Source: Brasenia schreberi (lineage: Eukaryota > Streptophyta > Magnoliopsida > Nymphaeales > Cabombaceae). From it: a DNA stretch of 64,000 bases. Below are positions 16,879 to 42,929 of the stretch, in pieces (position 1 is the first letter of the stretch; the number at the start of each line of letters is the position of its first letter). The stretch covers positions 8,084,001 to 8,148,000 of the forward strand of contig JAYKKT010000041.1 of NCBI GenBank assembly GCA_036023115.1, given 5' to 3'. The position numbers and the translations under genes are program-made. Below the pieces are notes generated by a model. It saw nothing but the letters and a program-made list of their open reading frames with translations, did no database searches and was not told the DNA's origin.

Positions 16879-16951
16879 GTTGATCGATGTAGAAGGTAGG
16901 AATTTAGCAGATCCTATCAATATTCAATACATAAAGAAGTATCATGTGTAG
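16879..16951 (+). pseudogene. Element B pol, last 20-odd codons
   Basis: After the GTTGA TSD the frame continues with LIDVEGRNLADPIN and ends KKYHV plus a TAG stop at 16949-16951. It matches the C-terminus of the intact pol at 34030-34095 and rejoins the fragment ending at 10696. Confidence 0.9.
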
Positions 16952-20479: not shown

Positions 20480-20710
20480 GTTCTGGTTAAGTTGTGTGTG
20501 TTGTCTTTCAATTCTCGCACTCACATACATTGAGCTTTCGCTCTTATTTGCAAGACCCAAGTAAGGGTTGTGTTATATTTTCCCTTGGGTGTTTTACTTC
20601 ATGTCGTGTGTGTTGTCTTTCAATTCTCGCACTCACACACATTGAGCTTTCACTCTTACTCCCAAGACCTTAGTTAAGGCCATACTGCAATTTCTATTTG
20701 GGTTTCATTT
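20480..20710 (+). repeat. LTR tandem modules (two to three copies) in the element B LTR
   Basis: Units contain ACATTGAGCTTTCGCTCTTA and CCCAAGTAAGGG or the variant ACCTTAGTTAAGGCC, with the GAGC-TTTC-GCTC core. Confidence 0.7.
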
Positions 20711-21385
20711 AAGTCGTGTGAGTTGTCTTTCAATATACACACAACACCCACGCAACACGTTGGTGACCTTTCGGCCCATATATATTATAAGTATTTCCCT
20801 TTCGGCTATGTCTTTTAGATTTGGGTTTTAAGGTTCAGCAGTGTGCGTAGTCTTTACATATATACACGGCACACACTTGCACTATTGAGCCTTTCCGCTC
20901 TTAAGATATAGCCATATTTCCCTTTTGCAATTTACATTTCAAGTCATTACCCTTCCGCATTGTCTTTAAATTTCGGGTTTTCCCTTTGGAGTTGCATGAG
21001 TTTGCATTGCATATACGCCATACCATGAGTTAGGATGCATATTGCATCAAAGCAAAACCCCATACTCTCGCTCAAAGTCGCCCTACTTAGGTTATGTGTT
21101 TATAACACACACCTAGTTGGCCCGAAAAGGGATAAAAAGAAAGACATAGGCACGTGCAAATCCACGTGAAATAAAATCTAAAAAACCATACAAAAACAAC
21201 CCAAATCGAACACCTCAAAATGTTTTCATAGGTTCTCGTACTTTAAAACTCGATTTTAAAGCGTACAGACTGACCCTTGCGCATCGGTGCAAGAAGGTCT
21301 GCGACAAAAAGAGCTTGCTTGCTCACAGTCACCACGTTAGGAGTCAGATTTCAAAGTATTTCTTCGCTAGCTTAAGTAAGCTAGC

Positions 21386-21395
21386 TGGCACGCCC
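21386..21395 (+). other. PBS-like decamer inside U5
   Basis: TGGCACGCCC, identical to the first 10 bases of the PBS at 21562, follows the inverted repeat GCTAGCTTAAGTAAGCTAGC. The same arrangement is seen at 16781, 41281 and 51903. Confidence 0.6.
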
Positions 21396-21476
21396 TTTTG
21401 CTTAAATAGGACTTAGACACACGAAAAGGTTCGCTTCAGGCCTAAGAACTAGGAGCGGGAACTTTCTGGGTCTACA

Positions 21477-23504: not shown

Positions 23505-23509
23505 CCACC
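23505..23509. repeat. Target-site duplication CCACC (left) of element E
   Basis: CCACC lies before the LTR start at 23510 and again at 39207-39211 after the LTR end. Joining across restores the CAGCCCACCTTATCA sequence seen in other LTRs. Confidence 0.95.
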
Positions 23510-24410
23510 TATAGACACCCAAAATTTTCTTTTAAAATTCGTAACTTTTTAGGAAAGTGGCCATTTTGGCAAATTTTGGGGTTTCTGAAGGAAAAAGGCA
23601 CTAAACGAGTTTGTTTTGGTACCAAAATTTTATGGAAGCTTTAAAATGATGAAAGAATGCTTTCCGTTCTGAAAGTTTTGAGTTTTGACAAAATTTGGAA
23701 AAATGACAATTTTACCCTTAGTACTGGAAAAACAGGATTTCGTTTTCTTAAAAGATTTATGACAAAAAGTATGTTGAAAGCTTGCCTTTTGAAAAGATAC
23801 AAGTATCAAAAAGACAAGTTGACACCTGAAAAGGACGGTGGACGCCTAGAAAGGGAAAACGGGCATCAAAAAGGGAAAGTGAGCTTCCTAGAAAGAAAAG
23901 CTCACATTTGGAAAGAAATCAATTTCTAGAGGGTAAGGTCGGTATTATCAAAAGAAAGGAAAGGTGGAAGCAAGAACGAAAGCCTCCAAAAATGAAGGTT
24001 TAGTATCGAACGCCTCTCGTAACGTGTCTACGTTATGTTTGGGTATTGAGGTAATTAGTATTGATATATATCAATTTGCATTGTCATTTGTTACTGGTAT
24101 GCTATTGATATGTTATGATAAGAGCAATTTTAATATCCCAACACTCGTGGAAAGGATTGAATGAGCATGAAAGTTGATTTTCAAAAACGTAACATAGGCC
24201 TATTTGAATAAATTCATAATAGGTAAGTATGTAATATGGATTTGCATAGCCACGTTCATGGCATATACAGATAACGGAAGACTACTTGAGTACTCTTATA
24301 CATGTAAAAGATTCAATTGAGACTCATCATGTTTCCTTAGAAGTGGCTATTTGTTAATACTTTTCTGCTTATTCTGTGTTGAGCTAGACTGTTGAAATTG
24401 TTGTGGTGCA

Positions 24411-25529
24411 ATGGAGGCAGAAGACGGGGAAGGGGAAGAGGAGGAGTTTGGATTCTCTCGCAACTACTTCCTTTCCAAGGAATTGGGATCACCCAAATCC
24501 AGAAAACTCCGCAAGAAGCTTTCCGACATCGAACCCCTCGACGAAAAGGAGCCGAGAGATGCAGCATCCAGTTTGGTGACTAAGCACGAGAAGGAGACAG
24601 CATCTTTGTTGAAAAGCTATAGAAGTTTGTATTCGAGATGGAGTTTTGAGCTCAGGTGCGGGTTTGGGCTTCTAATGCATGGTTTTGGTTCGAAAAAGGC
24701 CTTGCTTGAAGACTTTGCTTCAACAATGTTAGATAATTATGGAGTTGTTGTCATCAATGGCTACCTTCAATCTATCAATATCAAACATGCTGTAGTATCC
24801 ATGGCTGAGATTCTATGGGATGACATGAAAAGCAAAGCAAGAATTTCCTCAAGGAACAAGTCTAAAGTAACTCAGACATTTAGCTCACAATCCATGGAGG
24901 AGCTTTTGCATTTCTTGGATGGGTCTCAATCAAAAGAGAATGATTGCATTGTTTGTGCAGTAATTCACAATATAGATGGGCCTGGGTTACGGGATGGTGA
25001 ATCACAACAGTATCTTGCTCGTTTGGCTGGCTGCTCTCAAGTTCGTGTCATAGAATCTGTCGACCATGTTAATAGTCTTCTTTTGTGGGACAAGAAGATG
25101 GTTAGCACCCAGTTCAATTGGTGCTGGTACCATGTCCCAACATTTGCTCCTTACAAAGTTGAAAGTACCTTCATGCCCATGATTCTTGCGAGTGGTGGCG
25201 CCACTCAGAATTCGAGGACAGCTACAATAGTCCTTCAGAGTCTGACACCGAATGCTCAAGGTGTTTTCAGGATCCTTGCAGAGCATCAACTGGGTCATCC
25301 AGATGACGAAGGATTGCCTCTTAACATGCTGTATGCAAAATGCCGGGAGAAGTTTCTAGTTAGCAGTCAAGTCACACTAAATTCCCATTTGACAGAGTTC
25401 AAGGATCATGAGCTGGTAAGAACCAGGAAGAAGTGTGTTGGTGGGGATTGCTTTGAAATGATTCCAGCAAAACTCCAGCACGTGATGATAAAAAGAACTG
25501 GCATGAAGGCTGCAAATATTAGTAGTTAA
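24411..25529 (+). CDS. ORC2: Origin recognition complex subunit 2, intronless captured copy in the 5' LTR
   Basis: A 372-residue uninterrupted ORF from ATG to TAA, close to the usual length of plant ORC2 (about 360 residues). ORC2 is a subunit of the six-protein complex that marks replication origins in the nucleus and loads the MCM helicase. The acidic N-terminus is followed by [13 protein letters not shown], the core [20 protein letters not shown] (GFGSKK at residues 91-96), [42 protein letters not shown] and the winged-helix region [18 protein letters not shown]. Plant ORC2 genes as I know them have several introns, so this is most likely a cDNA-derived copy. The element's own TATA box lies 0.5 kb downstream, so this copy needs another promoter. 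It differs from the 3' copy at P48 and E215 (L and A there). Confidence 0.93.
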
Positions 25530-26032
25530 GAACAAGCTATTCACTATTGCAGTAACACAAAAGAAACATTGGACGTGACTCTGAATCTTCTGCGGCACTC
25601 ACAGAATCCTTGATGAAATACTTACACGAAGACCAAATTTTCAGAATTGATCATCATTTGAGAAAGGAGTTCGGTTGGAAAAGATGACCCATTGTGATGA
25701 TCATTCTCGTGAACTGATCTTCAACAGACTTCAACAACTTCCAGCTGAATCTGGTCAACAACCTTCAACAGAATGTGCTAGCTGCAGAATTTCTCATCCT
25801 TATCTGTGATAGATTGAAAAAGGAGCAGAAGATTACGTTAAAGATAAAACCAAAGAAATAACAACTCACATTACAAACAACGTTCAAATAATTCAGATAA
25901 CGTTCAGCAAACCAGATGGAATCAAATACAGAGGATTATGCTTATCAAATCAGATCAGAGGAGATCAACCAAGAGATTGAGTTTATCAAAATCGAACTCA
26001 CCCAAATCCCAACCAACAGGCATCCATGAGCC

Positions 26033-26039
26033 TATAAAA
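26033..26039 (+). promoter_or_regulatory. TATA box of the element E 5' LTR
   Basis: CCTATAAAAGG is preceded by ATCCATGAG and followed by a leader containing a GA microsatellite (about 26124-26142). It is the best core promoter in the LTR and would start the genomic RNA near 26060-26070, leaving ORC2 in U3. Confidence 0.65.
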
Positions 26040-26929
26040 GGACTCTTCCATCAACGGATCAGGCACCAACCAGCGACGATCAACCAACGAGCATCAAGAG
26101 GTTCAGTCCGAAAATTCAGAGAAATAGAGAGAGAGAGAGAGAAAGGAAGAGAAGAAGGAGAAGAAGGAAGTCCGGCCTGGTTCCGACGTCCGACGATCGT
26201 CCGGCGAAGTGCTCCTACGTCTCCTCTCACTCACACAGGTTGGAATTCTTGCACAAATTGGTTTTAATTCATGAGAATCTGAAAAAGCACAGATTCTGGA
26301 AATTTGTACGTGAATCAAGGCCTTGAGCCCATGTTCTTCATTTATATCGATACAAACATGCATGATTCCTTCATGAACGGAATTAAAATCCATGTTTAGA
26401 TGATTTCCATGCATCATTAGGACTGATACAGGTTGAATTTCGTTTTAGAATCACGTTAGGAACTTTCTGAAATTTTCTGCAAACTTGGTTTCTGAAACTG
26501 TCCGTGTACACGCGTTTGATCACGGAATTTTTATAGACAAACGGATAATCCAATTGCTTCGAAATTTTGCATTAATAATCTAGACATATCAGACATTCTT
26601 AGATAAAATTTTGAGGAATTTTTATGAACTGTTGCCTAGCCAATTATATCCGTGAAGTTTATACAAAATCCAGATTGCGTTTTACAGAAACAGAACGTTC
26701 AGTAACAGACCTCTGTTCTTTTGCCCATATCTCTTTAACCACTGAATGAAATTGGATGAAATTTGATTCTTTGGAAACCTAACATCCGTATCTTTCTAAC
26801 ACAACAAATTTTATCGAAATTGGATGACTGAGTGCTGAGATATTGCTGTTTTTCTGAGCTTCTGATTCACAGAAATAGGGCTGTTCCGAATTTTATAACA
26901 GTTTCTGATTCTGTATTTAATTCTCAGAA

Positions 26930-26935
26930 AATAAA
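26930..26935 (+). promoter_or_regulatory. Candidate polyadenylation signal AATAAA in the element E LTR
   Basis: AATAAA lies in an A-rich stretch about 0.9 kb after the TATA box; the 3' LTR counterpart at 38757-38762 would act on genomic RNA. This rests on the motif and position alone. Confidence 0.35.
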
Positions 26936-27200
26936 GAACAAAATTATAAAATAAAAATATATTCTGATTCTACACACACGTGTCTCTATTCTGTAAAAGT
27001 TTTAGAATTTTTGGAGAATCAGAAGTATTTTTAAAAATTCGAAGAACAGGTCTTTGGAACTGAACAGATTCTACAACTTTCAGAATCTGAAAATTTTCAG
27101 AAATCAAGAACTTAAACACAAATCTGAAACTATTGAAAAATCTGGTTTTTCCTTTCTCGAATTAACGGATTCAAACAAATTTCAAGCGTCTAGGCTGACC

Positions 27201-27218
27201 CTTGAGCGCCGGTTCAAG
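27201..27218 (+). other. U5 stem-loop of element E 5' LTR (covaried form)
   Basis: CTTGAGCGCCGGTTCAAG forms stem CTTGA/TCAAG. The last stem pair is A-T instead of the C-G seen in LTRs A, B, D, F, H and L, while pairing is maintained. Confidence 0.6.
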
Positions 27219-27303
27219 AAGGCCTAAGTCGAAAAGATCTCACTTGTCCACAATCGTTCTTAGAAGTCAGAAAATCAGAATTTGTTAGTTTTGATAAACT
27301 AAC

Positions 27304-27313
27304 TGGCACGCTC
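27304..27313 (+). other. PBS-like site inside U5 of element E
   Basis: TGGCACGCTC matches nine of the first ten PBS bases and lies 81 bases upstream of the true PBS, after an AACTAAC-type relic of the GCTAGC inverted repeat. Confidence 0.5.
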
Positions 27314-27384
27314 GCGCAACCTGACGTAGTTCGAGGGTTTGATTTCGGATCCCACGATTTGAAATAAAATCACGTCTACAGATT

Positions 27385-27402
27385 TGGCACGCCCGGTGGG
27401 AC
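27385..27402 (+). other. Primer-binding site of element E
   Basis: TGGCACGCCCGGTGGGAC, four bases (GATT) after the LTR end. It primes minus-strand DNA synthesis from a host tRNA 3' end; the tRNA species is not assigned. Confidence 0.92.
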
Positions 27403-27484
27403 TTGAGACTTTGAAATTTTGTTTGAATCCATTATACTAATTCAATTTTCAGGTTTGTGATAAGTTGGCTTAAACAGGTTGATC

Positions 27485-30115
27485 ATGTCGAGCTCAGAAG
27501 GATCTTGTGAGGTATCCAGCCGGGTCTCCCGCTCTACCAGCCGCTGCTCGAACAAAATTTCAAAAAGCTTTTCAAAAGGAGACAGGTTCGCTGCCCTAAG
27601 GGAGGGAATAAAGGTACTAAGAGAAGAAATCGACGCTTTAAGCCAAGAAGCTGAAGCAGTCGAATCCTGCTCTTCCCATGATAGGAAAACCAAAACGAAT
27701 AGGAAATCAAACCACTGTAGGAAGCCTAGGGTCGTTTCCAAAATTGAAGAAGAACTTGAGCCCGAATCCTTCACCATGAAAGATCAAAAGGCTCTACATC
27801 AACTTTTGAAAAACCAAAAACATGAGAAAAAATCCTATGCCTTATCAGATTTCCTACCTTTCGACTACCAAACCGATAGTGATGATGAGATACCCAGCTT
27901 CCACCGTTATGATGGAAACGGAGACCCTAGGTCTCATCTCCAACTTTTCTCCCGAAGTGCCTATAAAAAGAAAAAAGACTCCTCTAAGTGGGTCTATTGG
28001 TTCCCTCATTCTTTAAAAGGGAGTGCTGCAAAATGGTTGGCCTCTTATGACTTAAGCCAGTTTGCCGATTTTGAAGAATTAGCCAACTGTTTTATGCAAA
28101 GATTTTCGCACAATGTTGAAGTTACCCCCACTTTAAATACATTGAGGGACACCAAACAAGGCCCTAACGAAGACGCCCACGCGTTTATCGTTAGATGGAG
28201 ATCAATCTTGGGGCAAGTCAAAGAACCTATCTCCGAAGGGTGCGCAGTGATGCTCATCCTAGACAATTTCAAAACTGATTTGAAAGTCCTCCTTTCCTTA
28301 CATGAGATTTCTACTTTCCAAAAATTGATCAAGAAAGCTTCCCTTTTCGAGACCAATTTGAAAAAGGGAACTTATGAAGATTTATGGAAAGGAAAAAGTT
28401 TTCCAAAAAAATTTGAAAAACCTGGGGCATATGGGCCACATGCACCAGAGGGAGGGATAAAAGTACCAAAAGTGGCTAATGTTCGAGTAGAGCAAGGTTT
28501 AGCAGGACCCCCAAAACCTTCAGGGCAAAAAGATCTCGAAAAGAACCAAAAAAATAAAAAGAGATTTGAAAGAAGGGAGTACACTAACCTAGGACAACCA
28601 CTCACGGAGGTCCTAGACATCCTATTGGCACAAGGTCTTACAACACTCCCAGAGATTCCCGAAGGGGCACCACCCCAAGGAAAGTTTTTAAACAAGTTTT
28701 GTAAATATCATAGGCTCAAGGGCCATGATACCCAACACTGCTACACCCTGAAGAATAGGATAGAGGATTTGATCGAGCAAGGTAAGCTGCACGTGTCTGA
28801 AGAGCCAGAGTCACCCCAGGCCATTTTTAAAGAACCCTTCCCTAACCACGCCAGTACGAGTGGGAAGGAAAAAGAGGTATGCTCCCTATCACACTCTAAT
28901 CATGCAGTGCATATCGTGCATCCCACACCTCACACACCACACTTTCCCGAAATAAAAAATGCCCAAGCAATAGTGATCCGAGGAGCACTTAGAAACCCGC
29001 CCCCGGCTAGAGCCTTGGTAGTGATTCGAGGTGTCCCGAGACACCAAGTTAGAGCCAAAATAGGAACGAGCCCTAGGGATAGTGTAGAGGAAGTGACTAG
29101 ATCCGGGAGGATCTACCAACCCCCACACTTAGCAAAACAAACAAGCAAGGGAGTGGTCGTTCTACCAGGCCCCCCACAAGCATGCATACCAAACTCATCC
29201 CAGGGTGTCGATAAAAAGGGTGTGGTAATAAACCCCTATGACCTAGAAATGCATCTTTCTAAACTCCCCATAAACATGTCTATCTTGGAACTGATAAAAA
29301 TTTCTCCCAAGCATAGACGAGTCCTAGAGGAGATTTTAGAGAAGACTAGAGTCGACACTACGATATCCCCTGAATCCCTATCTACCTTGGTTTCTCCCGT
29401 CTTTGCAAAAACTTCCATTGTATTCACAGAGAATGATTTGGGAAAGTATGATGTGATCCATAACCAAGCACTCCATATAGAAGTTATGTTAAACGGCTAC
29501 CCTATTAGTAAATGCCTAGTCGATGGAGGAGGAGGCCTTAATATCCTTCCCCTCCATGTGGCTTTCCAAATAGGAATCTCTACCTCTATGCTTGAACCAA
29601 GTCCCATAACCATTACAGGATATGATGGGAACCCATCCAACCCCTTAGGCTCCATAAAGTTACCCATGAAAGTCGGACAAATACCTCACGAGGGATTATT
29701 CCATGTCTTGGATATAAATCCCCATTACAACCTATTATTAGGAAGACCATGGATACACTCTCTTAGAGCCGTCCCATCCACCTTCCACAGATGCCTCAAA
29801 ATCCCATGGAAAAATCGGGTAGTGGTTGTTTTTGGAGAAGACCATCCCCAATTGAATGGAATACAAACCTTTCCTTGTATATCAGGGGAGCCAAACCAGG
29901 AAGTAAAGACCAATCAGGAAACTGCCAAAATAAACCTCCCTGAAATAGCTAAATCTTCCAAAACGAGAGTAGTTCGCATTTTAGGCGAGTCAAAACTTTC
30001 CAAATCCCTCCATCTTCCCAAAAGAACCATTAGGATAAGTAAACCTACCATAGATGATTCATCTTTCCAAAATCATCATCTATATCAAATATTTTCAAAA
30101 TTCAAGAAACCTTAG
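27485..30115 (+). CDS. Element E gag-protease polyprotein, 876 residues
   Basis: The ATG at 27485 follows the PBS by 82 bases. The N-terminal Ser-rich and coiled region (residues 1-75) precedes a retrotransposon gag capsid segment (about 165-300; WVYWFPHSLKGSAAKWL, then HAFIVRWRSILGQ). A CCHC-like knuckle follows (about 405-420, CKYHRLKGHDTQHC), which may bind RNA. The aspartic protease (about 660-790) has active-site VDGGGG with D680, in place of the usual D-S/T-G, and the flap-side motif LLLGRPWI. The ORF is intact and ends in TAG at 30113-30115. In the same frame the next ATG (30119) opens a G-patch ORF. Homologous pieces in element C (21689-22343, 41383-42202, 45474-46124) show the same domain order. 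Confidence 0.93.
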   Translation: MSSSEGSCEVSSRVSRSTSRCSNKISKSFSKGDRFAALREGIKVLREEIDALSQEAEAVESCSSHDRKTKTNRKSNHCRKPRVVSKIEEELEPESFTMKDQKALHQLLKNQKHEKKSYALSDFLPFDYQTDSDDEIPSFHRYDGNGDPRSHLQLFSRSAYKKKKDSSKWVYWFPHSLKGSAAKWLASYDLSQFADFEELANCFMQRFSHNVEVTPTLNTLRDTKQGPNEDAHAFIVRWRSILGQVKEPISEGCAVMLILDNFKTDLKVLLSLHEISTFQKLIKKASLFETNLKKGTYEDLWKGKSFPKKFEKPGAYGPHAPEGGIKVPKVANVRVEQGLAGPPKPSGQKDLEKNQKNKKRFERREYTNLGQPLTEVLDILLAQGLTTLPEIPEGAPPQGKFLNKFCKYHRLKGHDTQHCYTLKNRIEDLIEQGKLHVSEEPESPQAIFKEPFPNHASTSGKEKEVCSLSHSNHAVHIVHPTPHTPHFPEIKNAQAIVIRGALRNPPPARALVVIRGVPRHQVRAKIGTSPRDSVEEVTRSGRIYQPPHLAKQTSKGVVVLPGPPQACIPNSSQGVDKKGVVINPYDLEMHLSKLPINMSILELIKISPKHRRVLEEILEKTRVDTTISPESLSTLVSPVFAKTSIVFTENDLGKYDVIHNQALHIEVMLNGYPISKCLVDGGGGLNILPLHVAFQIGISTSMLEPSPITITGYDGNPSNPLGSIKLPMKVGQIPHEGLFHVLDINPHYNLLLGRPWIHSLRAVPSTFHRCLKIPWKNRVVVVFGEDHPQLNGIQTFPCISGEPNQEVKTNQETAKINLPEIAKSSKTRVVRILGESKLSKSLHLPKRTIRISKPTIDDSSFQNHHLYQIFSKFKKP

Positions 30116-30118
30116 AAG

Positions 30119-30337
30119 ATGTTGCTAAATATGGGATATACTCCTTACCAAGGATTAGGGGTTCAAGGCCAAGGAAAACTAGAGCCTATTACACCCATGC
30201 CAAATATAGGACGCCATGGTTTAGGGTATAGCCTATCCATACCACCCGAGCCACCACCCAAAACCAATTGGGTTAAGGGTGCCTTAGAACCCGCTAAAAC
30301 CGAGACCTATGGTTTAGACATCTTATTTGGAGTCTAA
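30119..30337 (+). CDS. G-patch ORF of element E, 72 residues
   Basis: The protein begins MLLNMGYTPYQGLGVQGQGK, a G-patch-like glycine pattern (MGY..xxGLGxxxQG) of the kind found in some retroelement and RNA-processing proteins. It is in the same frame as gag-protease and separated from it by one TAG and one sense codon, so it could be a readthrough C-terminal domain, an independent ORF or a former part of gag-pro. Element A has TTG at the TAG position, which suggests that the ancestral frame was continuous. G-patch domains at the C-terminus of proteases are known in some retroviruses. Expression mode is uncertain. Confidence 0.7.
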   Translation: MLLNMGYTPYQGLGVQGQGKLEPITPMPNIGRHGLGYSLSIPPEPPPKTNWVKGALEPAKTETYGLDILFGV

Positions 30338-30342
30338 TTCAT

Positions 30343-30358
30343 AGTGTTTTCTTTGCAG
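30343..30358 (+). promoter_or_regulatory. Splice-acceptor-like site before pol
   Basis: AGTGTTTTCTTTGCAG ends six bases before the pol ATG at 30364 and has a pyrimidine tract and CAG/GT. It fits subgenomic pol mRNA by splicing, known from Ogre-type Tat elements. Not tested. Confidence 0.45.
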
Positions 30359-30363
30359 GTTTG

Positions 30364-33300
30364 ATGGAAGATCCCTCTTTTGGGAAAAATACAAAAAAAG
30401 TATATATTTCCAAAAACCAAAAAAATCTAGAAAAACCCAAAAACCCAAAAAAATGTTTGATTTCCAAAGATTTAGTTGTTTCCCCTTTTGTTATTTATGA
30501 TGAAAATTATCAAAAATCCAAAAAAATGCTGGTTTCCCCTTCTGTTTGTTTTCAAAAATCCAAAAAAATAGAAAATTATGAAAACTCAAAAAAAATGTTT
30601 ATTTCCCAAAAACAGAAAAGTTTAAAAATGTCTTCTTTTGATATTTTCCTAGAGACAAAGATGCTTGAAAATGATCAAGGCGAAAAGGAGGATCCCCTCA
30701 TTCATGAGGAGGATGATCTCACCTCTAGCCTGCCTGAATTCCATAAAGTCCTAGACTTGGATAAACCTTCTAGTGCCGTAGGGGGAGATTTTGTGGAAGT
30801 CAACTTAGGGAGTGAGTCAAATCCAAAGAAAGTCAAGATAGGTCTTTGTTTGCATGAGCATGAGAAAACATCCTTCATTGCATTCTTAAAAGACTATATA
30901 GACGTATTTGCATGGACTTATGAGGATATGCCTGGTTTAGATCCTCGTGTGGTAGAGCATCAGTTGCCATTAGACCCCCAAGTCAAACCCGTAAAACAAA
31001 AACTTAGGAAAATTCATCCTGATATCCACTCCCAAGTAAAAGAAGGGTTAGAAGATCTTTTAAAAGCTGGATTTATAAAACCCATTGCATATTCTGATTG
31101 GCTTTCAAATATTGTTATAGTTAGAAAAAGCAATGGAAAAATTCGTATTTGCATAGATTTTCGAAATTTGAATAAAGCCACTCCGAAAGATAACTTTCCA
31201 CTTCCAAACATAGATTTGATAGTAGATAGCACTGCAAATCATGAAATGTTTTCTTTTATGGATGGCTATTCGGGTTACAATCAAATTAAACTAGCACCAA
31301 AAGACCAAGCCAAAACGGCTTTCACTACACCTTGGGGTACGTATTGCTATACTGTTATGCCTTTTGGTTTGAAAAATGCAGGGGCCACATACCAAAGAGC
31401 CATGACCACGATTTTCCATGATCAAATTCATGAGCTTTTGGAAGTATACGTAGATGATCTCTTAGTAAAATCAAAAACCCGAAATTTACATTTGGAAACT
31501 TTGCAAAAGGTTTTTGAAAGACTTAGGATTTATAAAGTGAAATTGAACCCTCAAAAATGTGTTTTTGGAGTGGAATCAGGGAAACTTCTAGGGTTTATGG
31601 TCAGCCAAAGAGGTATAGAGGTCGACCCTTCTAAATGTCGAGCCATCATAGACATGCCTCCACCTTCTAATTTGACCCAAATTCGAAGTCTCCAAGGACG
31701 ACTTCAAGCAATTCGGAGATTTATCTCCAACTTAGCCACGAGATGTGAGCCTTTCAACAAACTCCTAAGGAAAGGGGTTAAGTTTGATTGGGATAGTGAT
31801 TGTCAAAATGCTTTTGAAAGACTAAAATCATATTTGACAAACCCTCCCGTTTTGAAACCTCCAAAACCAGGAAAACCCTTGTTACTTTACATTTCCATTC
31901 ATGAGAATGCATTGGGAGCTTTGCTGGCTCAATATGAAAATGATAGTCTTAAAGAATATGCTATTTACTATATTTCAAAAACTCTGTTGGCATATGAAAG
32001 AAAATATCCAGCCATGGAGAAGACGTGTTTAGCTTTGGTATGGGCTTGCCAAAAGTTTAGGCACTATTTCCTAGATCATGAGATCTGGATAGTATCTAAA
32101 CTAGACCCTATCAAACATCTTTTCGAAAAACCTATCTTAACAGGTAGGCTCGGTAAATGGCAACTTCTTTTGATGGAATATGATTTAAAATTCCATCACC
32201 AAAGTTCTATCAAGGGGCAGGCCTTGGCCGACCATGTTGCTGACTTACCTTTGAAAGATATGTATTCCATACATGATAAAATGCCCGATGAAGGCATCTT
32301 TTCCCACGACTTTCAAAAACATGTTTTATCAAATCATTTCAATAATAACCAAGTATGGAAAATGTATTTTGATGGGTCAAGAAATCAACATGGAGCAGGT
32401 GTGGGAATCTTGCTCATATCCCCTGAAAAGGCTGAAATCCCAATGGCTTTTCGATTAGATTTCCCATGTACCAATAATGTGGCTGAATATGAAGCACTCA
32501 TACAAGGCCTAAAAGTTTTGAAAAATCTAGGGGCATCGCGAGTGGAAATTTTTGGAGATTCCATGCTTGTTATAAATCAAGTTTCAAAAATTTGGCAAGT
32601 TAAGAATGAGAAGTTGACTCCCTACTTTGAATTATCTATCCAATTGGTTAGCTCTTTCCAAGAATGCACACTCACTCACATAGGTAGGGAGGATAATAGT
32701 GTGGCAGACGCCCTGTCATCACTAGGATCTTCCATAAAAATAGACCCCTTTACGGGAGCTAGGTTTTTAGAAATCGTCCACCTGCCTAATCCATCCACAC
32801 ACAGTTTTGAAACCTGCCAAAATGACCAAAATAGCAATGAAAAACCCTGGTTTTATGATATTAGAAACTTTTTAGAAAATGGAAGTTTTCCTGATTTTGC
32901 TTCCCCTAAAGATAAGATTTTTATAAGGAAAGTTTCAACCCGATATGTTATCTTGGGAGGTGTCCTTTATAAGAAAAGCTTCACTGGGATTTTGTTGAGG
33001 TGTATAGATGACGAAGAGGCTAAGGTAATCATGCATGAATTCCACGATGGGGAATGTGGAGGTCATGTCAATGCTAATATGATGGCAATGAAAATACTTA
33101 GAGCAGGGTATTTTTGGTCCACACTAAAGCAGGATTGTCACCAACATGTTAGGAAGTGTCACCAATGTCAGGTACATGGGAACGCCATCCATATTCCATC
33201 ATCAGCATTGCATTCAGTCGTGAGTCCATGGCCCTTCACCATGTGGGCATTTGACATTATAGGACCCATTTCACCCGTCGCCTCAAATGGGCATAGATTC

Positions 33301-34095
33301 ATTTTAGGAGCAACAGAATATTTTTCTAAATGGGTTGAAGCTACTTCCTTGGCTAACGTCCAAGGGCAACATGTAGTGGCATTCATTAAGAAAAATATAC
33401 TTACTAGATTTGGAATCCCAAGGGATTTGGTTTCAGATAATGGCACTCCCTTTAAGAATGAAAAAGTCGAGAAATTATGTAGAACCTATGGGATTACCCA
33501 GCATTTTTCATCACCCTACTATCCCCAAGGTAACGGTCAAGCCGAAGCTACCAATAAGACCCTCATAAGCATAATAGAAAAGACTTTAGAGAAGGGTAGG
33601 GCATGGCATGAGAAATTAGATGAGGCTCTGTGGGCTTATAGGACATCCATTCGCACACCCACAAACACTACACCATTTGAATTAGTTTATGGTACAAGTG
33701 CCATATTACCCATCCATGCCAAACTGCATTCATACCATACTGCTTTAGCATTGGACCTACCTATAGAAACTCTACAAGAAGCCAGGTTGGCCGAGCTTGA
33801 CCTTATTGATGAAAAAAGACTTCTTGCCATGAATCATGCATATGCATATAGGCAAAGGATAGCTAGGCACTATGAAAAACACATGAAAGCTCGCGATTTC
33901 AAGGTAGGGGACCTAGTTCTGAAAATCATCCATCATAGAGGCCCACATCCACTAGGAAAATGGCGACCCAAATGGGATGGCCCTTATGTCATAAGAGGGG
34001 CAACTTCTAATAATGCCTATTGGTTGGTTGATGCGGAAGGAAAGAATCTGGCAGATCCCATAAATGCCCAGTATTTGAAAAGGTATTACATCTAA
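30364..34095 (+). CDS. Element E pol: RT, RNase H, archaeal-like RNase H, integrase (1243 residues)
   Basis: It is in a different frame from gag-pro. I chose the ATG at 30364; the TTG just before it is not a likely plant start. The Lys-rich N-terminus (1-110) precedes RT (about 200-390) with YVDD at 362-365. RNase H (about 480-600) contains YAIYYISKTLLAYE. The second RNase H (about 665-790) has D670, E in AEYEALI near 708-710, D in FGDSM and D near 782. In integrase, H891, C932 and C935 form the zinc finger and D964, D1025 and E1061 the DDE triad with 35 residues between the last two. The C-terminus has a GPY/F-like GPYVIRG and no chromodomain. Length and order fit the Tat group of Ty3/gypsy. 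There are no stops or shifts. It copies the RNA into DNA and inserts it in the nucleus. Confidence 0.96.
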   Translation: MEDPSFGKNTKKVYISKNQKNLEKPKNPKKCLISKDLVVSPFVIYDENYQKSKKMLVSPSVCFQKSKKIENYENSKKMFISQKQKSLKMSSFDIFLETKMLENDQGEKEDPLIHEEDDLTSSLPEFHKVLDLDKPSSAVGGDFVEVNLGSESNPKKVKIGLCLHEHEKTSFIAFLKDYIDVFAWTYEDMPGLDPRVVEHQLPLDPQVKPVKQKLRKIHPDIHSQVKEGLEDLLKAGFIKPIAYSDWLSNIVIVRKSNGKIRICIDFRNLNKATPKDNFPLPNIDLIVDSTANHEMFSFMDGYSGYNQIKLAPKDQAKTAFTTPWGTYCYTVMPFGLKNAGATYQRAMTTIFHDQIHELLEVYVDDLLVKSKTRNLHLETLQKVFERLRIYKVKLNPQKCVFGVESGKLLGFMVSQRGIEVDPSKCRAIIDMPPPSNLTQIRSLQGRLQAIRRFISNLATRCEPFNKLLRKGVKFDWDSDCQNAFERLKSYLTNPPVLKPPKPGKPLLLYISIHENALGALLAQYENDSLKEYAIYYISKTLLAYERKYPAMEKTCLALVWACQKFRHYFLDHEIWIVSKLDPIKHLFEKPILTGRLGKWQLLLMEYDLKFHHQSSIKGQALADHVADLPLKDMYSIHDKMPDEGIFSHDFQKHVLSNHFNNNQVWKMYFDGSRNQHGAGVGILLISPEKAEIPMAFRLDFPCTNNVAEYEALIQGLKVLKNLGASRVEIFGDSMLVINQVSKIWQVKNEKLTPYFELSIQLVSSFQECTLTHIGREDNSVADALSSLGSSIKIDPFTGARFLEIVHLPNPSTHSFETCQNDQNSNEKPWFYDIRNFLENGSFPDFASPKDKIFIRKVSTRYVILGGVLYKKSFTGILLRCIDDEEAKVIMHEFHDGECGGHVNANMMAMKILRAGYFWSTLKQDCHQHVRKCHQCQVHGNAIHIPSSALHSVVSPWPFTMWAFDIIGPISPVASNGHRFILGATEYFSKWVEATSLANVQGQHVVAFIKKNILTRFGIPRDLVSDNGTPFKNEKVEKLCRTYGITQHFSSPYYPQGNGQAEATNKTLISIIEKTLEKGRAWHEKLDEALWAYRTSIRTPTNTTPFELVYGTSAILPIHAKLHSYHTALALDLPIETLQEARLAELDLIDEKRLLAMNHAYAYRQRIARHYEKHMKARDFKVGDLVLKIIHHRGPHPLGKWRPKWDGPYVIRGATSNNAYWLVDAEGKNLADPINAQYLKRYYI

Positions 34096-34116
34096 AATCC
34101 CCCTTATTTCCATTTG

Positions 34117-34117
34117 A

Positions 34118-34201
<84 letters not shown>

Positions 34202-34204
34202 GTT

Positions 34205-34243
<39 letters not shown>

Positions 34244-34269
34244 CTTTTTTTTTTTTTTTTTTTTTTTTT

Positions 34270-34361
<92 letters not shown>

Positions 34362-34366
34362 TGAAG

Positions 34367-34454
<88 letters not shown>

Positions 34455-34455
34455 A
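34117..34455. repeat. Long A and T homopolymer block
   Basis: An A run of about 80 (to 34200), CGTTG, then T runs to about 34269 broken by ATC, then A runs to about 34455 broken by GATGAAG and G. The T block is flanked by A blocks, so a fold-back is possible. The equivalent region of elements A, B, C and K has no such tract. It may be a real microsatellite or an assembly artefact. Confidence 0.85.
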
Positions 34456-34975
34456 TTGGGGTGCGTGCGTAGGTGCGTAGGTAGTGGTAGTAGAATCAGG
34501 TACAAGTAGGTAGATAAAAAAAAAAGACCTGATGCCATGAACAGCATCCATTCAGCGTGCAACGCCCAGCCATAAGACATTATTATTTTTTTTTTTTGAA
34601 CTGGATCATCACATCACCAGAAGGGCAATTAAGGGGGCCTGCAACAAATAAACGTTGTTTAGGGGCTCTACGCAGCACAATAAGATGCAAACCTGCAACT
34701 TCTCATGCTGTTGTCATTTTTATCTTTAATTATGCAACAGCTTGAATTAAATATAACTTATTTCTTTATCACATAATCGCTAATACTAAGCAAGTTATGT
34801 TTCAAACCCTCAACAAGCAGCACATTTTCAATAGAGGAGTTAGGGGCTCCACCGACTTTGCCGACCCAAGGATTTTTCCTTTATTGTTATCACCATAAAG
34901 GACGTAAGTCCATGATTCTTTAGAACAAGTATGTGAATTTTGAGTCGCCCCCGCCATGTGCTTGAACAGCCACTA
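34456..34975. other. Element E pol-to-LTR spacer, first part
   Basis: Mixed sequence unrelated to the pol-to-LTR spacers of elements B, C and K. It contains the pentamer-like GTGCGTGCGTAGGTGCGTAG beside the poly-A block. No recognisable ORF. It could be foreign sequence acquired by this element. Confidence 0.4.
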
Positions 34976-35150
34976 TCAAGATACCCATAAACTGGTAGTC
35001 CATGGATCCCATAACATTTGGAACATGCATACATAAACTGGTAGTCCATGGATCCCATAACATTTGGAACATGCATACATAAGCTAGTAGTTCATAGATC
35101 CCATAACTTTTTGACACAGGCATACATGTACTGGTCGTCCATAGAGGCAT
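34976..35150. repeat. 48-bp tandem repeat, about 3.5 copies
   Basis: The unit ACATAAACTGGTAGTCCATG followed by GATCCCATAACATTTGGAAC and ATGCAT occurs in two nearly identical copies (from about 34983) and two diverged copies (to about 35145). Located between pol and the PPT of element E. Confidence 0.85.
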
Positions 35151-35297
35151 GAAAGTCAGTTTTGCCTCAGTCTCTCAAAAGAAAATCTCCTTATAATAGT
35201 CATTCCAAGAAAAGAGATGTCATGGAACAAAAGGGGATCACATTTTCTCAAGATGTCTCTAAGGAAGAAAAGCAAATGGGTGTTTTCTTCTTTGACA

Positions 35298-35333
35298 TTA
35301 TCCAAATAAATTTGGGATAACGCCAAAGAGGGG
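35298..35333 (+). other. Inverted repeat plus polypurine tract of element E
   Basis: TTATCCAAATAAATTTGGGA followed by TAA (35298-35320) can fold back. The PPT AAAGAGGGG (35325-35333) sits four bases before the 3' LTR. Confidence 0.85.
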
Positions 35334-36237
35334 CATCTGTAGACACCCAAAATTTTCTTTTAAAATTCTTACCTTTTTAGGAAAGTGGCCATTTTGGCAA
35401 ATTTTGGGGTTTCTGAAGGAAAAAGGCACTAAACGAGTTTGTTTTGGTACCAAAATTTTATGGAAGCTTTAAAATGATGAAAGAATGCTTTCCGTTCTGA
35501 AAGTTTTGAGTTTTGACAAAATTTGGAAAAATGACGATTTTACCCTTAGTACTGGAAAAACAGGATTTCGTTTTCTTAAAAGATTTATGACAAAAAGTAT
35601 GTTGAAAGCTTGCCTTTTGAAAAGATACAAGTATCAAAAAGACAAGTTGACACCTGAAAAGGACGGTGGACGCCCAAAAAGGGAAAACGGGCATCAAAAA
35701 GGGAAAGTGAGCTTCCTAGAAAGAAAAGCTCACATTTGGAAAGAAATCAATTTCTAGAGGGTAAGGTCGGTATTATCAAAAGAAAGGAAAGGTGGAAGCA
35801 AGAACGAAAGCCTCCAAAAATGAAGGTTTGGTATCGAACGCCTCTCGTAACGTGTCTACGTTATGTTTGGGTATTGAGGTAATTAGTATTGATATACATC
35901 AATTTGCATTGTCATTTGTTACTGGTATGCTATTGATATGTTATGATAAGAGCAATTTTAATATCCCAACACTCGTGGAAAGGATTGAATGAGCATGAAA
36001 GTTGATTTTCAAAAACGTAACATAGGCCTATTTGAATACATTCATAATAGGTAAGTATGTAATATGGATTTGCATAGCCACGTTCATGGCATATAAGATA
36101 ACGGAAGACTACTTGAGTACTCTTATACATGTAAAAGATTCAATTGAGACTCATCATGTTTCCTTAGAAGTGGCTATTTGTTAATACTTTTCTGCTTATT
36201 CTGTGTTGAGCTAGACTGTTGAAATTGTTGTGGTGCA

Positions 36238-37356
36238 ATGGAGGCAGAAGACGGGGAAGGGGAAGAGGAGGAGTTTGGATTCTCTCGCAACTACTTCCTT
36301 TCCAAGGAATTGGGATCACCCAAATCCAGAAAACTCCGCAAGAAGCTTTCCGACATCGAACCCCTCGACGAAAAGGAGCTGAGAGATGCAGCATCCAGTT
36401 TGGTGACTAAGCACGAGAAGGAGACAGCATCTTTGTTGAAAAGCTATAGAAGTTTGTATTCGAGATGGAGTTTTGAGCTCAGGTGCGGGTTTGGGCTTCT
36501 AATGCATGGTTTTGGTTCGAAAAAGGCCTTGCTTGAAGACTTTGCTTCAACAATGTTAGATAATTATGGAGTTGTTGTCATCAATGGCTACCTTCAATCT
36601 ATCAATATCAAACATGCTGTAGTATCCATGGCTGAGATTCTGTGGGATGACATGAAAAGCAAAGCAAGAATTTCCTCAAGGAACAAGTCTAAAGTAACTC
36701 AGACATTTAGCTCACAATCCATGGAGGAGCTTTTGCATTTCTTGGATGGGTCTCAATCAAAAGAGAATGATTGCATTGTTTGTGCAGTAATTCACAATAT
36801 AGATGGGCCTGGGTTACGGGATGGTGAATCACAACAGTATCTTGCTCGTTTGGCTGGCTGCTCTCAAGTTCGTGTCATAGCATCTGTCGACCATGTTAAT
36901 AGTCTTCTTTTGTGGGACAAGAAGATGGTTAGCACCCAGTTCAATTGGTGCTGGTACCATGTCCCAACATTTGCTCCTTACAAAGTTGAAAGTACCTTCA
37001 TGCCCATGATTCTTGCGAGTGGTGGCGCCACTCAGAATTCGAGGACAGCTACAATAGTCCTTCAGAGTCTGACACCGAATGCTCAAGGTGTTTTCAGGAT
37101 CCTTGCAGAGCATCAACTGGGTCATCCAGATGACGAAGGATTGCCTCTTAACATGCTGTATGCAAAATGCCGGGAGAAGTTTCTAGTTAGCAGTCAAGTC
37201 ACACTAAATTCCCATTTGACAGAGTTCAAGGATCATGAGCTGGTAAGAACCAGGAAGAAGTGTGTTGGTGGGGATTGCTTTGAAATGATTCCAGCAAAAC
37301 TCCAGCACGTGATGATAAAAAGAACTGGCATGAAGGCTGCAAATATTAGCAGTTAG
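36238..37356 (+). CDS. ORC2: Origin recognition complex subunit 2, intronless captured copy in the 3' LTR
   Basis: Intact 372-residue ORF ending in TAG, with two amino-acid differences from the 5' LTR copy (L48 and A215 here). It shows the same ORC2 landmarks: GFGSKK at 91-96, a NIDGP motif and the C-terminal winged-helix part with [14 protein letters not shown]. Because it lies in the U3 of the 3' LTR, it would be inside the genomic RNA of element E, about 2.1 kb downstream of the pol stop. It is the template from which both U3 regions are made at the next reverse transcription. Translation from such a position would need a subgenomic or spliced RNA or a promoter in U3 upstream. Whether protein is made cannot be told here. 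Confidence 0.93.
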
Positions 37357-37859
37357 GAACAAGCTATTCACTATTGCAGTAACACAAAAGAAACATTGGA
37401 CGTGACTCTGAATCTTCTGCGGCACTCACAGAATCCTTGATGAAATACTTACACGAAGACCAAATTTTCAGAATTGATCATCATTTGAGAAAGGAGTTCG
37501 GTTGGAAAAGATGACCCATTGTGATGATCATTCTCGTGAACTGATCTTCAACAGACTTCAACGACTTCCAGCTGAATCTGGTCAACAACCTTCAACAGAA
37601 CGTGCTAGCTGCAGAATTTCTCATCCTTATCTGTGATAGATTGAAAAAGGAGCAGAAGATTACGTTAAAGATAAAACCAAAGAAATAACAACTCACATTA
37701 CAAACAACGTTCAAATAATTCAGATAACGTTCAGCAAACCAGATGGAATCAAATACAGAGGATTATGCTTATCAAATCAGATCAGAGGAGATCAGCCAAG
37801 AGATTGAGTTTATCAAAATCGAACTCACCCAAATCCCAACCAACAGGCATCCATGAGCC

Positions 37860-37866
37860 TATAAAA
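37860..37866 (+). promoter_or_regulatory. TATA box of the element E 3' LTR
   Basis: TATAAAAGG in the same context as 26033. From here transcription would read out into LTR D. Confidence 0.6.
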
Positions 37867-39026
37867 GGACTCTTCCATCAACGGATCAGGCACCAACCAG
37901 CGACGATCAACCAACGAGCATCAAGAGGTTCAGTCCGAAAATTCAGAGAAATAGAGAGAGAGAGAGAGAAAGGAAGAGAAGAAGGAGAAGAAGGAAGTCC
38001 GGCCTGGTTCCGACGTCCGACGATCGTCCGGCGAAGTGCTCCTACATCTCCTCTCACTCACACAGGTTGGAATTCTTGCACAAATTGGTTTTAATTCATG
38101 AGAATCTGAAAAAGCACAGATTCTGGAAATTTGTACGTGAATCAAGGCCTTGAGCCCATGTTCTTCATTTATATCGATACAAACATGCATGATTCCTTCA
38201 TGAACGGAATTAAAATCCATGTTTAGATGATTTCCATGCATCATTAGGACTGATACAGGTTGAATTTCGTTTTAGAATCACGTTAGGAACTTTCTGAAAT
38301 TTTCTGCAAACTTGGTTTCTGAAACTGTCCGTGCACACGCGTTTGATCACGGAATTTTTATAGACAAACGGATAAGCCAATTGCTTCGAAATTTTGCATT
38401 AATAATCTAGACATATCAGACGTTCTTAGATAAAATTTTGAGGAATTTTTATGAACTGTTGCCTAGCCAATTAGATCCGTGAAGTTTATACAAAATCCAG
38501 ATTGCGTTTTACAGAAACAGAACGTTCAGTAACAGACCTCTGTTCTTTTGCCCATATCTCTTTAACCACTGAATGAAATTGGATGAAATTTGATTCTTTG
38601 GAAACCTAACATCCGTATCTTTCTAACACAACAAATTTTATCGAAATTGGATGACTGAGTGCTGAGATATTGCTGTTTTTCTGAGCTTCTGATTCACAGA
38701 AACAGGGCTGTTCCGAATTTTATAACAGTTTCTGATTCTGTATTTAATTCTCAGAAAATAAAGAACAAAATTATAAAATAAAAATATATTCGATTGTACA
38801 CACACGTGTCTCTATTCTGTAAAAGTTTTAGAATTTTTGGAGAATCAGAAGTATTTTTAAAAATTCGAAGAACAGGTCTTTGGAACTGAACAGATTCTAC
38901 AACTTTCAGAATCTGAAAATTTTCAGAAATCAAGAACTTAAACACAAATCTGAAACTATTGAAAAATCTGGTTTTTCCTTTCTCGAATTAACGGATTCAA
39001 ACAAATTTCAAGCGTCTAGGCTGACC

Positions 39027-39044
39027 CTTGAGCGCCGGTTCAAG
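39027..39044 (+). other. U5 stem-loop of element E 3' LTR
   Basis: CTTGAGCGCCGGTTCAAG, identical to the 5' copy at 27201. Confidence 0.6.
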
Positions 39045-39206
39045 AAGGCCTAAGTCGAAAAGATCTCACTTGTCCACAATCGTTCTTAGAAGTCAGAAAA
39101 TCAGAATTTGTTAGTTTTGATAAACTAACTGGCACGCTCGCGCAACCTGACGTAGTTCGAGGGTTTGATTTCGGATCCCACAATTTGAAATAAAATCACG
39201 TCTACA

Positions 39207-39211
39207 CCACC
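39207..39211. repeat. Target-site duplication CCACC (right) of element E
   Basis: Second copy of CCACC directly after the LTR end, followed by the rest of LTR D (TTATCATCATACC). Confidence 0.95.
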
Positions 39212-39292: not shown

Positions 39293-40199
39293 CCCCCCCC
39301 CTTGGGGGCGGGTTCCATCATCTAACCGCCTCACCCATCCCAACCGGGTCCTCTCCTTCCCCAAGTCCAGTCGAATCCCACCTGCTCCACCTGCTCCGCC
39401 TGCACCACCACCTGCTCTCCATCCCACCACCACCTGCACCGCCACCTACACTACCACCTCCCAGCCGAACACCACCGCCTGCCCAACTCCCTTCCAGCCG
39501 AGCGCCACCCTCTTCTTCACCCGGTAAGTCCCCTACACCATACCCTGCTATTTCTTCACTCCCTCTCCACTCTCAGCCTCCTAATCCACTCCCCTACCAC
39601 TCTAACATCATCCCTTACACTTGCTGCCACCCTTCCCACTTAGCCGAACCCACAACACCCTAAATACCCGCCACCACCGAACTCCCCTAGTCGGCCACTT
39701 CAACTGACTGTCATCCCCTTCATTCGGCCAGCCATCCGCCAGCCATCACCCTCTCCTTGCTAGCTCCTTCCCTTAGTACCATATTCCCTTAGTAACCTTA
39801 CTTAGGTCCTTTAACCCAACACACGAAAAACGGCCCATCTCTAGTGGCCGGCCACCTTCAAGGCGCCTCTTCCGCGCACCAAGGACCTCCGGCCAGCACC
39901 TCTTGCTGTTCACCCTCGCGGAGCTCCCTTTTGCAGCCCAAGGCGAAGGCCAAGCCCACGCTCAAGCAAGGCATCTACGGACCAGCTACTAGTAAGTGCC
40001 TAACTCGGTCTTTAGTTGTATACTTGCTTGAGATTTAATTCGATACGGGGTTGTAATAACGGAGCATAGTCTCCCCCCGCTTGTAATAACATGGCTTGGC
40101 ACACCCACACACGTGCACTCTCCTAGTTGTGCACGATTTTGAACACACACGGGCCTAATCAGCCCCTAATACATAAGTATATACATATACTTTCATTTT

Positions 40200-40780
40200 G
40201 TAGGGTTTTGCTTAAGTTGGGTGTGTTGTCTTTCAATTCAAGCACTCTCACACACATTGAGCCTTCGCTGTTATTTGAAAGACCCAAGTAAGGGCCGACC
40301 TATACTATTTGGGTTTCATTTCATGTCGTGTGTGTAAGTCTTTCAATTCAAGCACTCTCACACACAATGAGCCTTCGCTCTTATTTGAAAGATCTTTCAA
40401 TTCAAGCACTCTCACACACATTGAGCCTTCGCTCTTATTTGAAAGACCCAAGTAAGGGCCGACCTATACTATTTGGGTTTCATTTCATGTTGTGTGCGTA
40501 GTACTTCAATTCAAGCACTCACACACATTGAGCTTTCGCTCTTACTCCCAAGACCTTAGTCAAGGCCTACTGCAGTTATATTTGGGTTTCATTTCATGTT
40601 GTGTGTGTAGTACTTCAATTCAAGCACTCACACACATTGAGCTTTCGCTCTTACTCCCAAGACCTTAGTCAAGGCCATACTGCAATTTATATTTGGGTTT
40701 AATTTCATGTCGTGTGTGTAAGTCTTTCCATTCAAGCACGCACCCACATTGAGCCTTCGCTCTTATTTGCAAGACCCGAG
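40200..40780 (+). repeat. LTR tandem modules in LTR D (about seven copies)
   Basis: Repeats of TTCAAGCACTCTCACACACA and TTGAGCCTTCGCTCTTATTT with either GACCCAAGTAAGGGCC or GACCTTAGTCAAGGCC. Copy number is higher than in LTR B, and one copy is internally shortened near 40390. Confidence 0.8.
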
Positions 40781-41377
40781 TAAGGGCTCATATACATACT
40801 CTATATACATATCTCCCTTCGGCATTTATATTTCAAGTCATTTCCCTTCGGTTATTTCCCTTTAGTATTGTCTTTACATTCGGGTTTTCCCTTTGGAGTA
40901 GCGTGAGTTTGCATTGCATCTACACCATACCACGAGGTAGGACGCATATTGCATCAAAGCAAGCCCCGCTCGAATTCGCCCACATAGTGGAGTGTTCATA
41001 ACACACAAACTAGGTGGCCCGAAAAGGGATAAAAGGAAAGACTTAGGCACGTGCAAATCCAAGTGATCTAATATATGCAATCGCATCTAAAAGACCCGAA
41101 TTAGACACCTCGAACCGCTTCATAGACTTTCTCTCCCAAAACTCGATTTTTGCAAAGCGTACAGACTGACCCTTGCGCATCGGTGCAAGAAGGTCTGCGA
41201 CGACAAGGGCTCACTTGCTCACAGTCGCCATGATTAGAAGTCAGTTTTAAATATATCTTCGCTAGCTTAGGTAAGCTAGTTGGCACGCCCTGTTTGCATA
41301 AATAGGCCTTAGACACACGAGAGGATCCGCTCCAAGCCCTGAAAAGGTGAGAAGCGGGGATTTTTTGCGCGTCTACA

Positions 41378-41382
41378 ACAGT
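41378..41382. repeat. Target-site duplication ACAGT (right) of solo LTR D
   Basis: Second copy of ACAGT, followed by AATGCTCATCCT, which continues the gag of element C. Confidence 0.95.
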
Positions 41383-42202: not shown

Positions 42203-42207
42203 CGAGC
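42203..42207. repeat. Target-site duplication CGAGC (left) of solo LTR F
   Basis: CGAGC before the LTR; second copy at 45469-45473. Confidence 0.93.
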
Positions 42208-42929
42208 TGTAGACACTGAAAAATCCTCACTTCTGGTTCTTAGGCCTGAAGCGAATCTTTTCGTGTGTCTAAGTCGTATTTTAGCAAAAGGGTGTGCCAG
42301 TTAGCTTGCTTAAGCTAGCGAAGAAACGTTTCAAAATCTGACTTCTATAGGGGCGACTGAGCAAGTAAGCTCTTTTCGTCGCAGACCTTCTTGCACCGAT
42401 GCGCAAGGGTCAGTCTGTACGCTTGGCAAAGTCTTTTTAAGATGTAAACCTCTTTGAAAAATAGCCTAAGTGTTTGGGCTTTGGATGTACGATTTCAAAT
42501 TTTATTACATGTGGGATTTGCACGTGCCTATGTCTTTCTTTTTATCTTTTCGGGCCAACTAGGTGTGTGTGTACAAGTGACCTAAGTTAAGCGATTTTTG
42601 AGCAGGAGTGTGGGGCTTGCTTTGATGCAATATGCATCCTAACTCGTAGTATGGCGTATATGCAATGCAAACTCATGCAACTCGAAAGGGAAAACCCAAA
42701 TTGAAAGACAAGGCGGAAGGGAAATGACTTAATGTAAATTTGCAAAAAGGAAATTGCAAAAGGGAAATATGGCTATATCTTAAGAGTGAAAAGGCTCAAT
42801 TGTGCAAGTGTGTGTCGTGTATATATGTAAAGACTATGCACACTACTGAACCTTAAAACCCAAATCTTAAAGACATAGCCGAAGGGAAATACTTATAATA
42901 TATATGGGCCTGAAGGTCGCCAACGTGTG

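Follow-up and report, generated by a model that had tools for sequence, protein, structure and literature searches.

Some retroviruses carry protein frames in U3, and hence in both long terminal repeats (LTRs), as with sag of mouse mammary tumour virus (MMTV) and, by overlap, nef; these are functional viral genes. In plants, LTR elements of maize, rice, sorghum, pepper and other species carry and multiply spliced host sequence, and the available parts of the surveys report such genes by hundreds to thousands (PMC2774510, PMC3726574, PMC5664825). In pepper, ~72% of the retro-NLRs reside in elements without gag or pol, and the annotation of intact elements included LTRs of at most 2000 bp, according to the accessible sections of that report (PMC5664825). 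Here, we describe an LTR retrotransposon of Brasenia schreberi that harbours an ORC2 frame of host origin in each of its LTRs. It occupies positions 23510-39206 of the window, i.e. the whole 64,000-nt stretch analysed (contig JAYKKT010000041.1 of assembly GCA_036023115.1, called C41, positions 8084001-8148000).

The initial annotation had reported open 372-residue ORC2 frames in the two LTRs, and they are found at exactly 24411-25529 and 36238-37356, on the plus strand like all other oriented features given below. Pfam identified both as ORC2, with RecA-like_ORC2 (E 1.5e-75 and 1.1e-77) and WHD_ORC2 (~4e-17) domains. The RecA-like_ORC2 scores, 254 for the left frame and 261 for the right one, compare with 259-276 in ten ORC2 proteins taken from the best 120 of 511 matches listed, and the WHD_ORC2 score is 62 bits in the LTR frames vs 74-83.5 in the same ten proteins. 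The left and right frames differ by two nonsynonymous (L48P and A215E), two synonymous and one stop-for-stop changes. L48 and A215 are found in the host gene and in the right copy, and the left frame thus has P48 and E215.

We searched the genome (1.055 Gb in 92 contigs, one assembly) for ORC2, which yielded 107 matches. They comprise exons of the host loci on contigs C84, C57 and C60, 20 ORC2-bearing LTR copies (several of them matched in two or three pieces) and 60 places that match the end of the frame only. The host ORC2 gene lies at C84:1430323-1475438 and has six exons separated by introns of up to ~41 kb; the joined exons code for an open 365-residue protein with the usual plant tail. 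In contrast with this gene, the LTR copy is continuous, as the initial annotation had proposed in calling it intronless. Over codons 1-340, the right window copy differs from the host gene only by A30S and A129V, i.e. 2 nt in 1020. With so few differences, we rejected an old capture kept by selection. A second intron-bearing ORC2 locus, at C57:234874-257759 (L029 and L030), is ~95% identical to the C84 gene. A partial reading of its alignment gave matches of 93-98% with gaps of 1-2 bp in four of the six aligned pieces; these gaps make the locus look broken, and it is probably a decayed paralogue. An exon-3 copy stands alone on C60.

Comparison with family LTRs devoid of ORC2 revealed the joins. 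We examined 16 of the 60 tail-only places (L036 and 15 other loci), and at all 16 the LTR matches positions 1-738 and 1923 onward of the ORC2-bearing LTR, with ~212 bp of different sequence in between, L042 being an exception in that only the second part lies within its stretch. The ORC2-bearing LTRs have 1184 bp in place of those ~212 bp. In the 3′ LTR of the window element, the shared first part (LTR 1-738) corresponds to 35338-36075. It is followed by 153 bp of unexplained source (LTR 739-891; 36076-36228) and then by the captured part of the ORC2 mRNA, which begins 9 nt ahead of the ATG and continues for 2 nt past codon 340 (LTR 892-1922; 36229-37259). The end of the frame, codons 341-372 (37260-37356), is old LTR sequence also present in ORC2-free LTRs, and its counterparts at the 60 tail-only places are mostly open over ~50 codons. 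ORC2-free LTRs are the commoner form of the family. The LTR-encoded protein is therefore a chimaera without the native tail, made of 340 codons of host mRNA followed by 32 of the LTR. We had considered decay as the cause of the altered C-terminus, which was rejected because the tail is LTR sequence. Thus, although the window frames are open over 372 codons, their description as complete, full-length ORC2 genes holds only up to codon 340. No convincing match to the 153 bp was found in the examined LTR loci, the 1.6 kb upstream of host ORC2 or the rest of the window. Retrogenes of the long interspersed nuclear element (LINE) type are described as ending in poly(A) and being flanked by direct repeats (PMC5664825). 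Here, none of 11 direct-repeat families brackets ORC2 and the copy ends within coding sequence; hence, we do not class it as a LINE-type processed retrogene.

The 20 ORC2-bearing LTRs are distributed over 14 insertions; thus, the window copy is not unique. Six elements have both LTRs and matching target-site duplications (TSDs): that of the window, two on C88 and one each on C64, C92 and C74. The TSDs of these pairs are CCACC, TCTTT, GTACT, CCGCC, GGCTG and TCGAC. One of the C88 elements (L011) has a rearranged 5′ LTR. Four solo LTRs (L012, L023, L025 and L026) are flanked by perfect TSDs. At the remaining four insertions, L009 has the flanks ATATG and ATACG, and a single ORC2-bearing LTR was found at each of L021, L022 and L024. 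As the initial annotation had concluded, ORC2 was part of the element before its last move, and each insertion brings two copies. All 20 copies share A30S and A129V relative to the host gene, and in a tree of 25 LTRs (the 20 and five ORC2-free ones, with the columns of the deletions described below left out), they form one clade with 100/100 support. These shared changes and the single clade indicate one capture, and the alternative of separate captures was rejected in view of the shared joins and changes. The divergence within LTR pairs, 0.0034-0.0139, corresponds to 0.13-0.53 million years at an assumed rate of 1.3e-8. ORC2 was thus captured once, recently, and then spread to at least 14 insertions.

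Before the host gene was found, we had compared proteins only, within the best 120 of 511 matches noted above. The nearest ORC2 listed was that of N. colorata, at 74% identity (77% over residues 1-350). In a tree of 118 rows (four of the 120 proteins were dropped for their length), the LTR copies grouped with N. colorata at 99% SH-aLRT, on a branch that is not longer than that of the latter (0.207 vs 0.238). Near-invariant sites were changed at 4/97 positions in the LTR copies and at six in N. colorata, with a median of one for 116 proteins, five of which, including that of N. colorata, have at least four such changes. A simulation of decay and a Poisson bound permitted ~20-30 neutral changes with indels at 5-10% of substitutions, and more without indels. 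These results agree with a recent capture, and the comparison with the host gene replaces them. A single scan of viral_contigs gave no match, and CpG depletion was set aside as evidence.

We then determined whether the captured gene is under selection, as the initial annotation had raised the possibility of a retained function, to be judged by dN/dS, as well as that of a mere passenger. Codons 1-340 are open in seven of the 20 copies and broken in the other 13. The copies have 76 distinct changes relative to the host gene in these codons, namely 54 nonsynonymous changes, 19 synonymous changes and three stops. Fifty-nine of them (40, 16 and three, respectively) occur in one copy only and 17 (14 nonsynonymous and three synonymous) in several. 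The neutral expectation for ORC2, with transitions favoured, is 69% nonsynonymous, 28% synonymous and 3% stop changes, i.e. a nonsynonymous share of 0.714 among the first two classes. The observed 54 to 19 fits neutrality (P = 0.70), and a dN/dS of 0.5 is rejected (P = 0.0009). Among changes transmitted by transposition, i.e. common to all copies or to both LTRs of one element, we counted nine nonsynonymous to one synonymous, which rejects a dN/dS of 0.2 (P = 0.0004). G-to-A and C-to-T substitutions are numerous, and some of the changes recur, a pattern expected of methylated DNA. These results argue against purifying selection, with no constraint seen on the family, and ORC2 is probably a neutral passenger of the element.

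The copies also display losses that resemble the removal of introns. The same 77 nt (36483-36559 in the 3′ LTR), with GT at their start and AG (TTAG) at their end, are absent from 11/20 copies. The stretch starts at the junction of host exons 2 and 3. As the last bases of exon 2 are CTCAG and the first ones of exon 3 are GTGCGG, the fused junction, CAG|GTGCGG, resembles a splice donor. Upstream, a 336-nt stretch with the ends GAG|GTAATT...GCTAG (LTR 542-877; 35879-36214) is absent from four copies, L015, L016, L024 and L025. L023 is devoid of a longer stretch, which has the same donor and reaches LTR 903 with no AG at its end. L015/L016, L023 and L024 also lack the 77 nt, and L025 retains them. 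In the C64, C92 and C74 elements, the 77-nt loss is common to both LTRs of the pair. The LTR tree requires at least four changes of the 77-nt state and at least three of the upstream one. The simplest reading of these sequences is that splicing of element RNAs preceded their reverse transcription on more than one occasion, and that both kinds of losses are apparent scars of this splicing. Ordinary deletions, with one origin each and spread by recombination between elements, are a less probable source, to which we give a minor share of belief. Recombination between packaged RNAs could mimic the tree minima, and the upstream loss of L023 does end differently, without AG. However, each of the two stretches is bordered exactly by GT and AG, and the 77-nt one begins at the fused exon junction.

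Splicing before reverse transcription fits into a larger scheme, the first step of which we regard as well supported: a Tat-clade element of a Nymphaeales-like plant very probably captured spliced host ORC2 mRNA into its LTR, once. The joins would result from template switching by the reverse transcriptase between element RNA and co-packaged ORC2 mRNA. Strand transfer would then have placed ORC2 in both LTRs at every cycle, because U3 belongs to the 3′ end of the genomic RNA. The ORC2-bearing form spread on and persists in solo LTRs too. Its RNA may sometimes have been spliced with CAG|GTGCGG as the donor, and reverse transcription of such RNA would leave the 77-nt and 336-nt scars and break the frame. 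The position in U3 depends on a putative promoter: the motif TATAAAAGGA is present in the 5′ LTR (26033-26042), where it is the likely promoter of the genomic RNA, and in the 3′ LTR (37860-37869), 504 bp 3′ of ORC2, which would place ORC2 in U3 if the motif is indeed the promoter. TATAAAAG lies after ORC2 in the LTR.

Several points weigh against this scheme. The assignment of ORC2 to U3 is based on a TATA motif. Another such motif, TATAAAA at 38772, is likewise located after ORC2, but TATAAG at 36092, in the right LTR only, precedes it, and if the RNA started upstream of ORC2, the gene would be in the leader instead. The 153 bp that precede ORC2 have an unexplained origin. The 9-to-1 ratio is a hand count of small numbers on inner branches, from which changes recurring at unrelated loci (R34C) were left out. 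Finally, seven copies are still open, including the two window copies and the pair in the C88 element at 10.35 Mb, and a weak or recent use of ORC2 is possible; the youth of the seven copies accounts for their open state.

An alternative in which ORC2 is an accessory gene useful to the element and kept by selection is very unlikely. The gene is in sense orientation, seven copies are open and the ORC2 domains are retained. In addition, the predicted winged helix of the LTR ORC2 matches that of the solved ORC2 structure 5c8h (TMt 0.87). The confidence of the model is modest, however (pLDDT 66.4, pTM 0.44), and its match to entire ORC2 chains is poor (TMq ~0.4). The changes are in neutral proportion even among those transmitted, most copies are broken and the native tail is gone. 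As the C64, C92 and C74 elements transposed with a broken ORC2, the gene is not required; the maintenance by selection that would characterize a U3 accessory gene was not found. The effect might instead be on the host, with small interfering RNAs (siRNAs) from silenced LTRs matching the host ORC2 mRNA or gene and reducing its expression, as the 20 copies and the near-identity of the window copy to the host gene would allow. There is an analogue in the apomictic Paspalum simplex, in which an ORC3-like pseudogene is associated with silencing of its homologue, as cited in the part of the source available (PMC8072704). Against this, long introns separate the host exons, which are not repeats themselves, and we consider such silencing unlikely. 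A broader proposal is similarly doubtful. The 20 LTRs, which carry sequence with >98% identity to the one ORC2 gene found intact in the genome, might form a dispersed trans-acting layer that alters ORC dosage, via siRNAs or a chimeric protein from the seven open copies, and so ties the licensing of replication to the activity of transposons; recurrent splicing at the junctions of fused exons might be a general route by which captured genes are broken. An effect on origin licensing or ORC dosage, which the initial annotation had raised, is thus no more than possible. An artefact of the assembly is barely conceivable. Only one assembly is available, but identical ORC2/LTR joins occur at 14 places with different TSDs. 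The evidence thus favours a single capture of a gene that is now a passenger.

The element itself is of the Ty3/gypsy type, with an LTR pair, a TSD and a reverse transcriptase-RNase H region preceding the integrase. The 5′ LTR (23510-27380, 3871 bp) begins with TATAGACACC, the terminal TG being mutated to TA, and ends with TCTACA. The 3′ LTR (35338-39206, 3869 bp) begins with TGTAGACACC and also ends with TCTACA. As the initial annotation had noted, they are nearly identical, with 25 substitutions and two one-base indels, and the TSDs are perfect (CCACC at 23505-23509 and 39207-39211). Two related repeats of the window represent the empty site, as they run across the joined flanks with a single CCACC. 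The 5′ LTR is followed by a primer-binding-site-like TGGCACGCCCGGTGGGAC (27385-27402), and a polypurine-tract-like AAAGAGGGGCATC (35325-35337) adjoins the 3′ LTR. The Gag open reading frame (ORF; 27464-30115, 883 codons stop to stop) has a Retrotrans_gag match (E 8.3e-06), and the Pol ORF (30298-34095, 1265 codons stop to stop) codes for reverse transcriptase, RNase H, RVT_3, H2C2 and the integrase core. Both ORFs are open as predicted, but Pfam made no protease call in the first one, even at E up to 5. In Pol, RT_RNaseH covers residues 503-607, RVT_3 residues 670-787 and rve residues 958-1055. The definition of the Tat clade and the domain order of angiosperm Tat elements, in the accessible part of the source, place a second RNase H between RNase H and integrase (PMC6317226). 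We infer that the RVT_3 domain is this aRH, which assigns the element to the Tat clade, Ogre/Retand type. The closest Pol match among the best 120 of 4409 listed is that of Victoria cruziana (59% identity over 82%), and together with the N. colorata ORC2 it points to a host in Nymphaeales.

Between pol and the polypurine tract, the region 34119-34455, after the pol stop, contains 82 A, CGTTG, ~64 T (93%) and then ~185 A (95%), which may stem from reverse-transcribed poly(A), from further insertions or from noise in the assembly, and a tandem repeat of a 46-bp unit (3.4 copies) lies at 34986-35142. Nested LTR elements make up much of the window. Related Tat-like pol regions with short frames, 74-76% identical to the pol of the element, are present at 7346-10695, 59942-62494 and 52885-53280. 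Ten further ORFs, out of 71 with at least 110 codons in the window, were scanned: two matched reverse transcriptase/RNase H domains, one gave weak matches in the A-rich stretch and seven gave none. A repeat family of ~1-1.5 kb, in both orientations and 70-92% alike, occurs at 4107-5507, 15826-16879, 20491-21476, 39848-41381, 42205-43622, 50524-52004 and 62497-63947; a 109-bp tandem unit was called within it at 40396-40776.

Several known systems share features with this family. As proposed here for ORC2, MMTV sag and nef have their frames in U3, but they are functional viral genes, whereas ORC2 is neutral host sequence. Like the plant retrogenes introduced above, ORC2 is spliced host sequence multiplied by an LTR element. 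The available parts of those surveys count genes anywhere in the element without stating their position in the LTR, and cases within LTRs may be included. The ORC2 described here, in contrast, sits within the LTR of an element with open gag and pol; every insertion doubles it, and solo LTRs keep it. Cassandra, Helenus and Ajax also have host-derived gene sequence in each LTR; however, theirs are small RNA genes that act as Pol III promoters, and the elements are short and non-autonomous (PMC10886601). In the BARE-2 and Veju chimaeras, template switching imported foreign sequence, in BARE-2 into the LTR, but in the portion available, the source is another retrotransposon or unknown, with no host coding gene (PMC13317346). 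We found no case of a host protein gene in both LTRs in the accessible parts of the open full-text literature, although surveys of genes 'inside' elements may contain some. A gene in the LTR is a more lasting duplicator than one in the body of the element, because it is doubled per insertion and survives in solo LTRs, and searches restricted to genes between LTRs can miss it. This family displays capture, breakpoints, spread and decay alongside the parent gene. Judging by the 77-nt losses, the junction of two fused exons may act as a splice donor and thereby break captured genes. Relative to known gene capture, what is new here is the location inside the LTR, together with the persistence in solo LTRs and the apparent splice scars.

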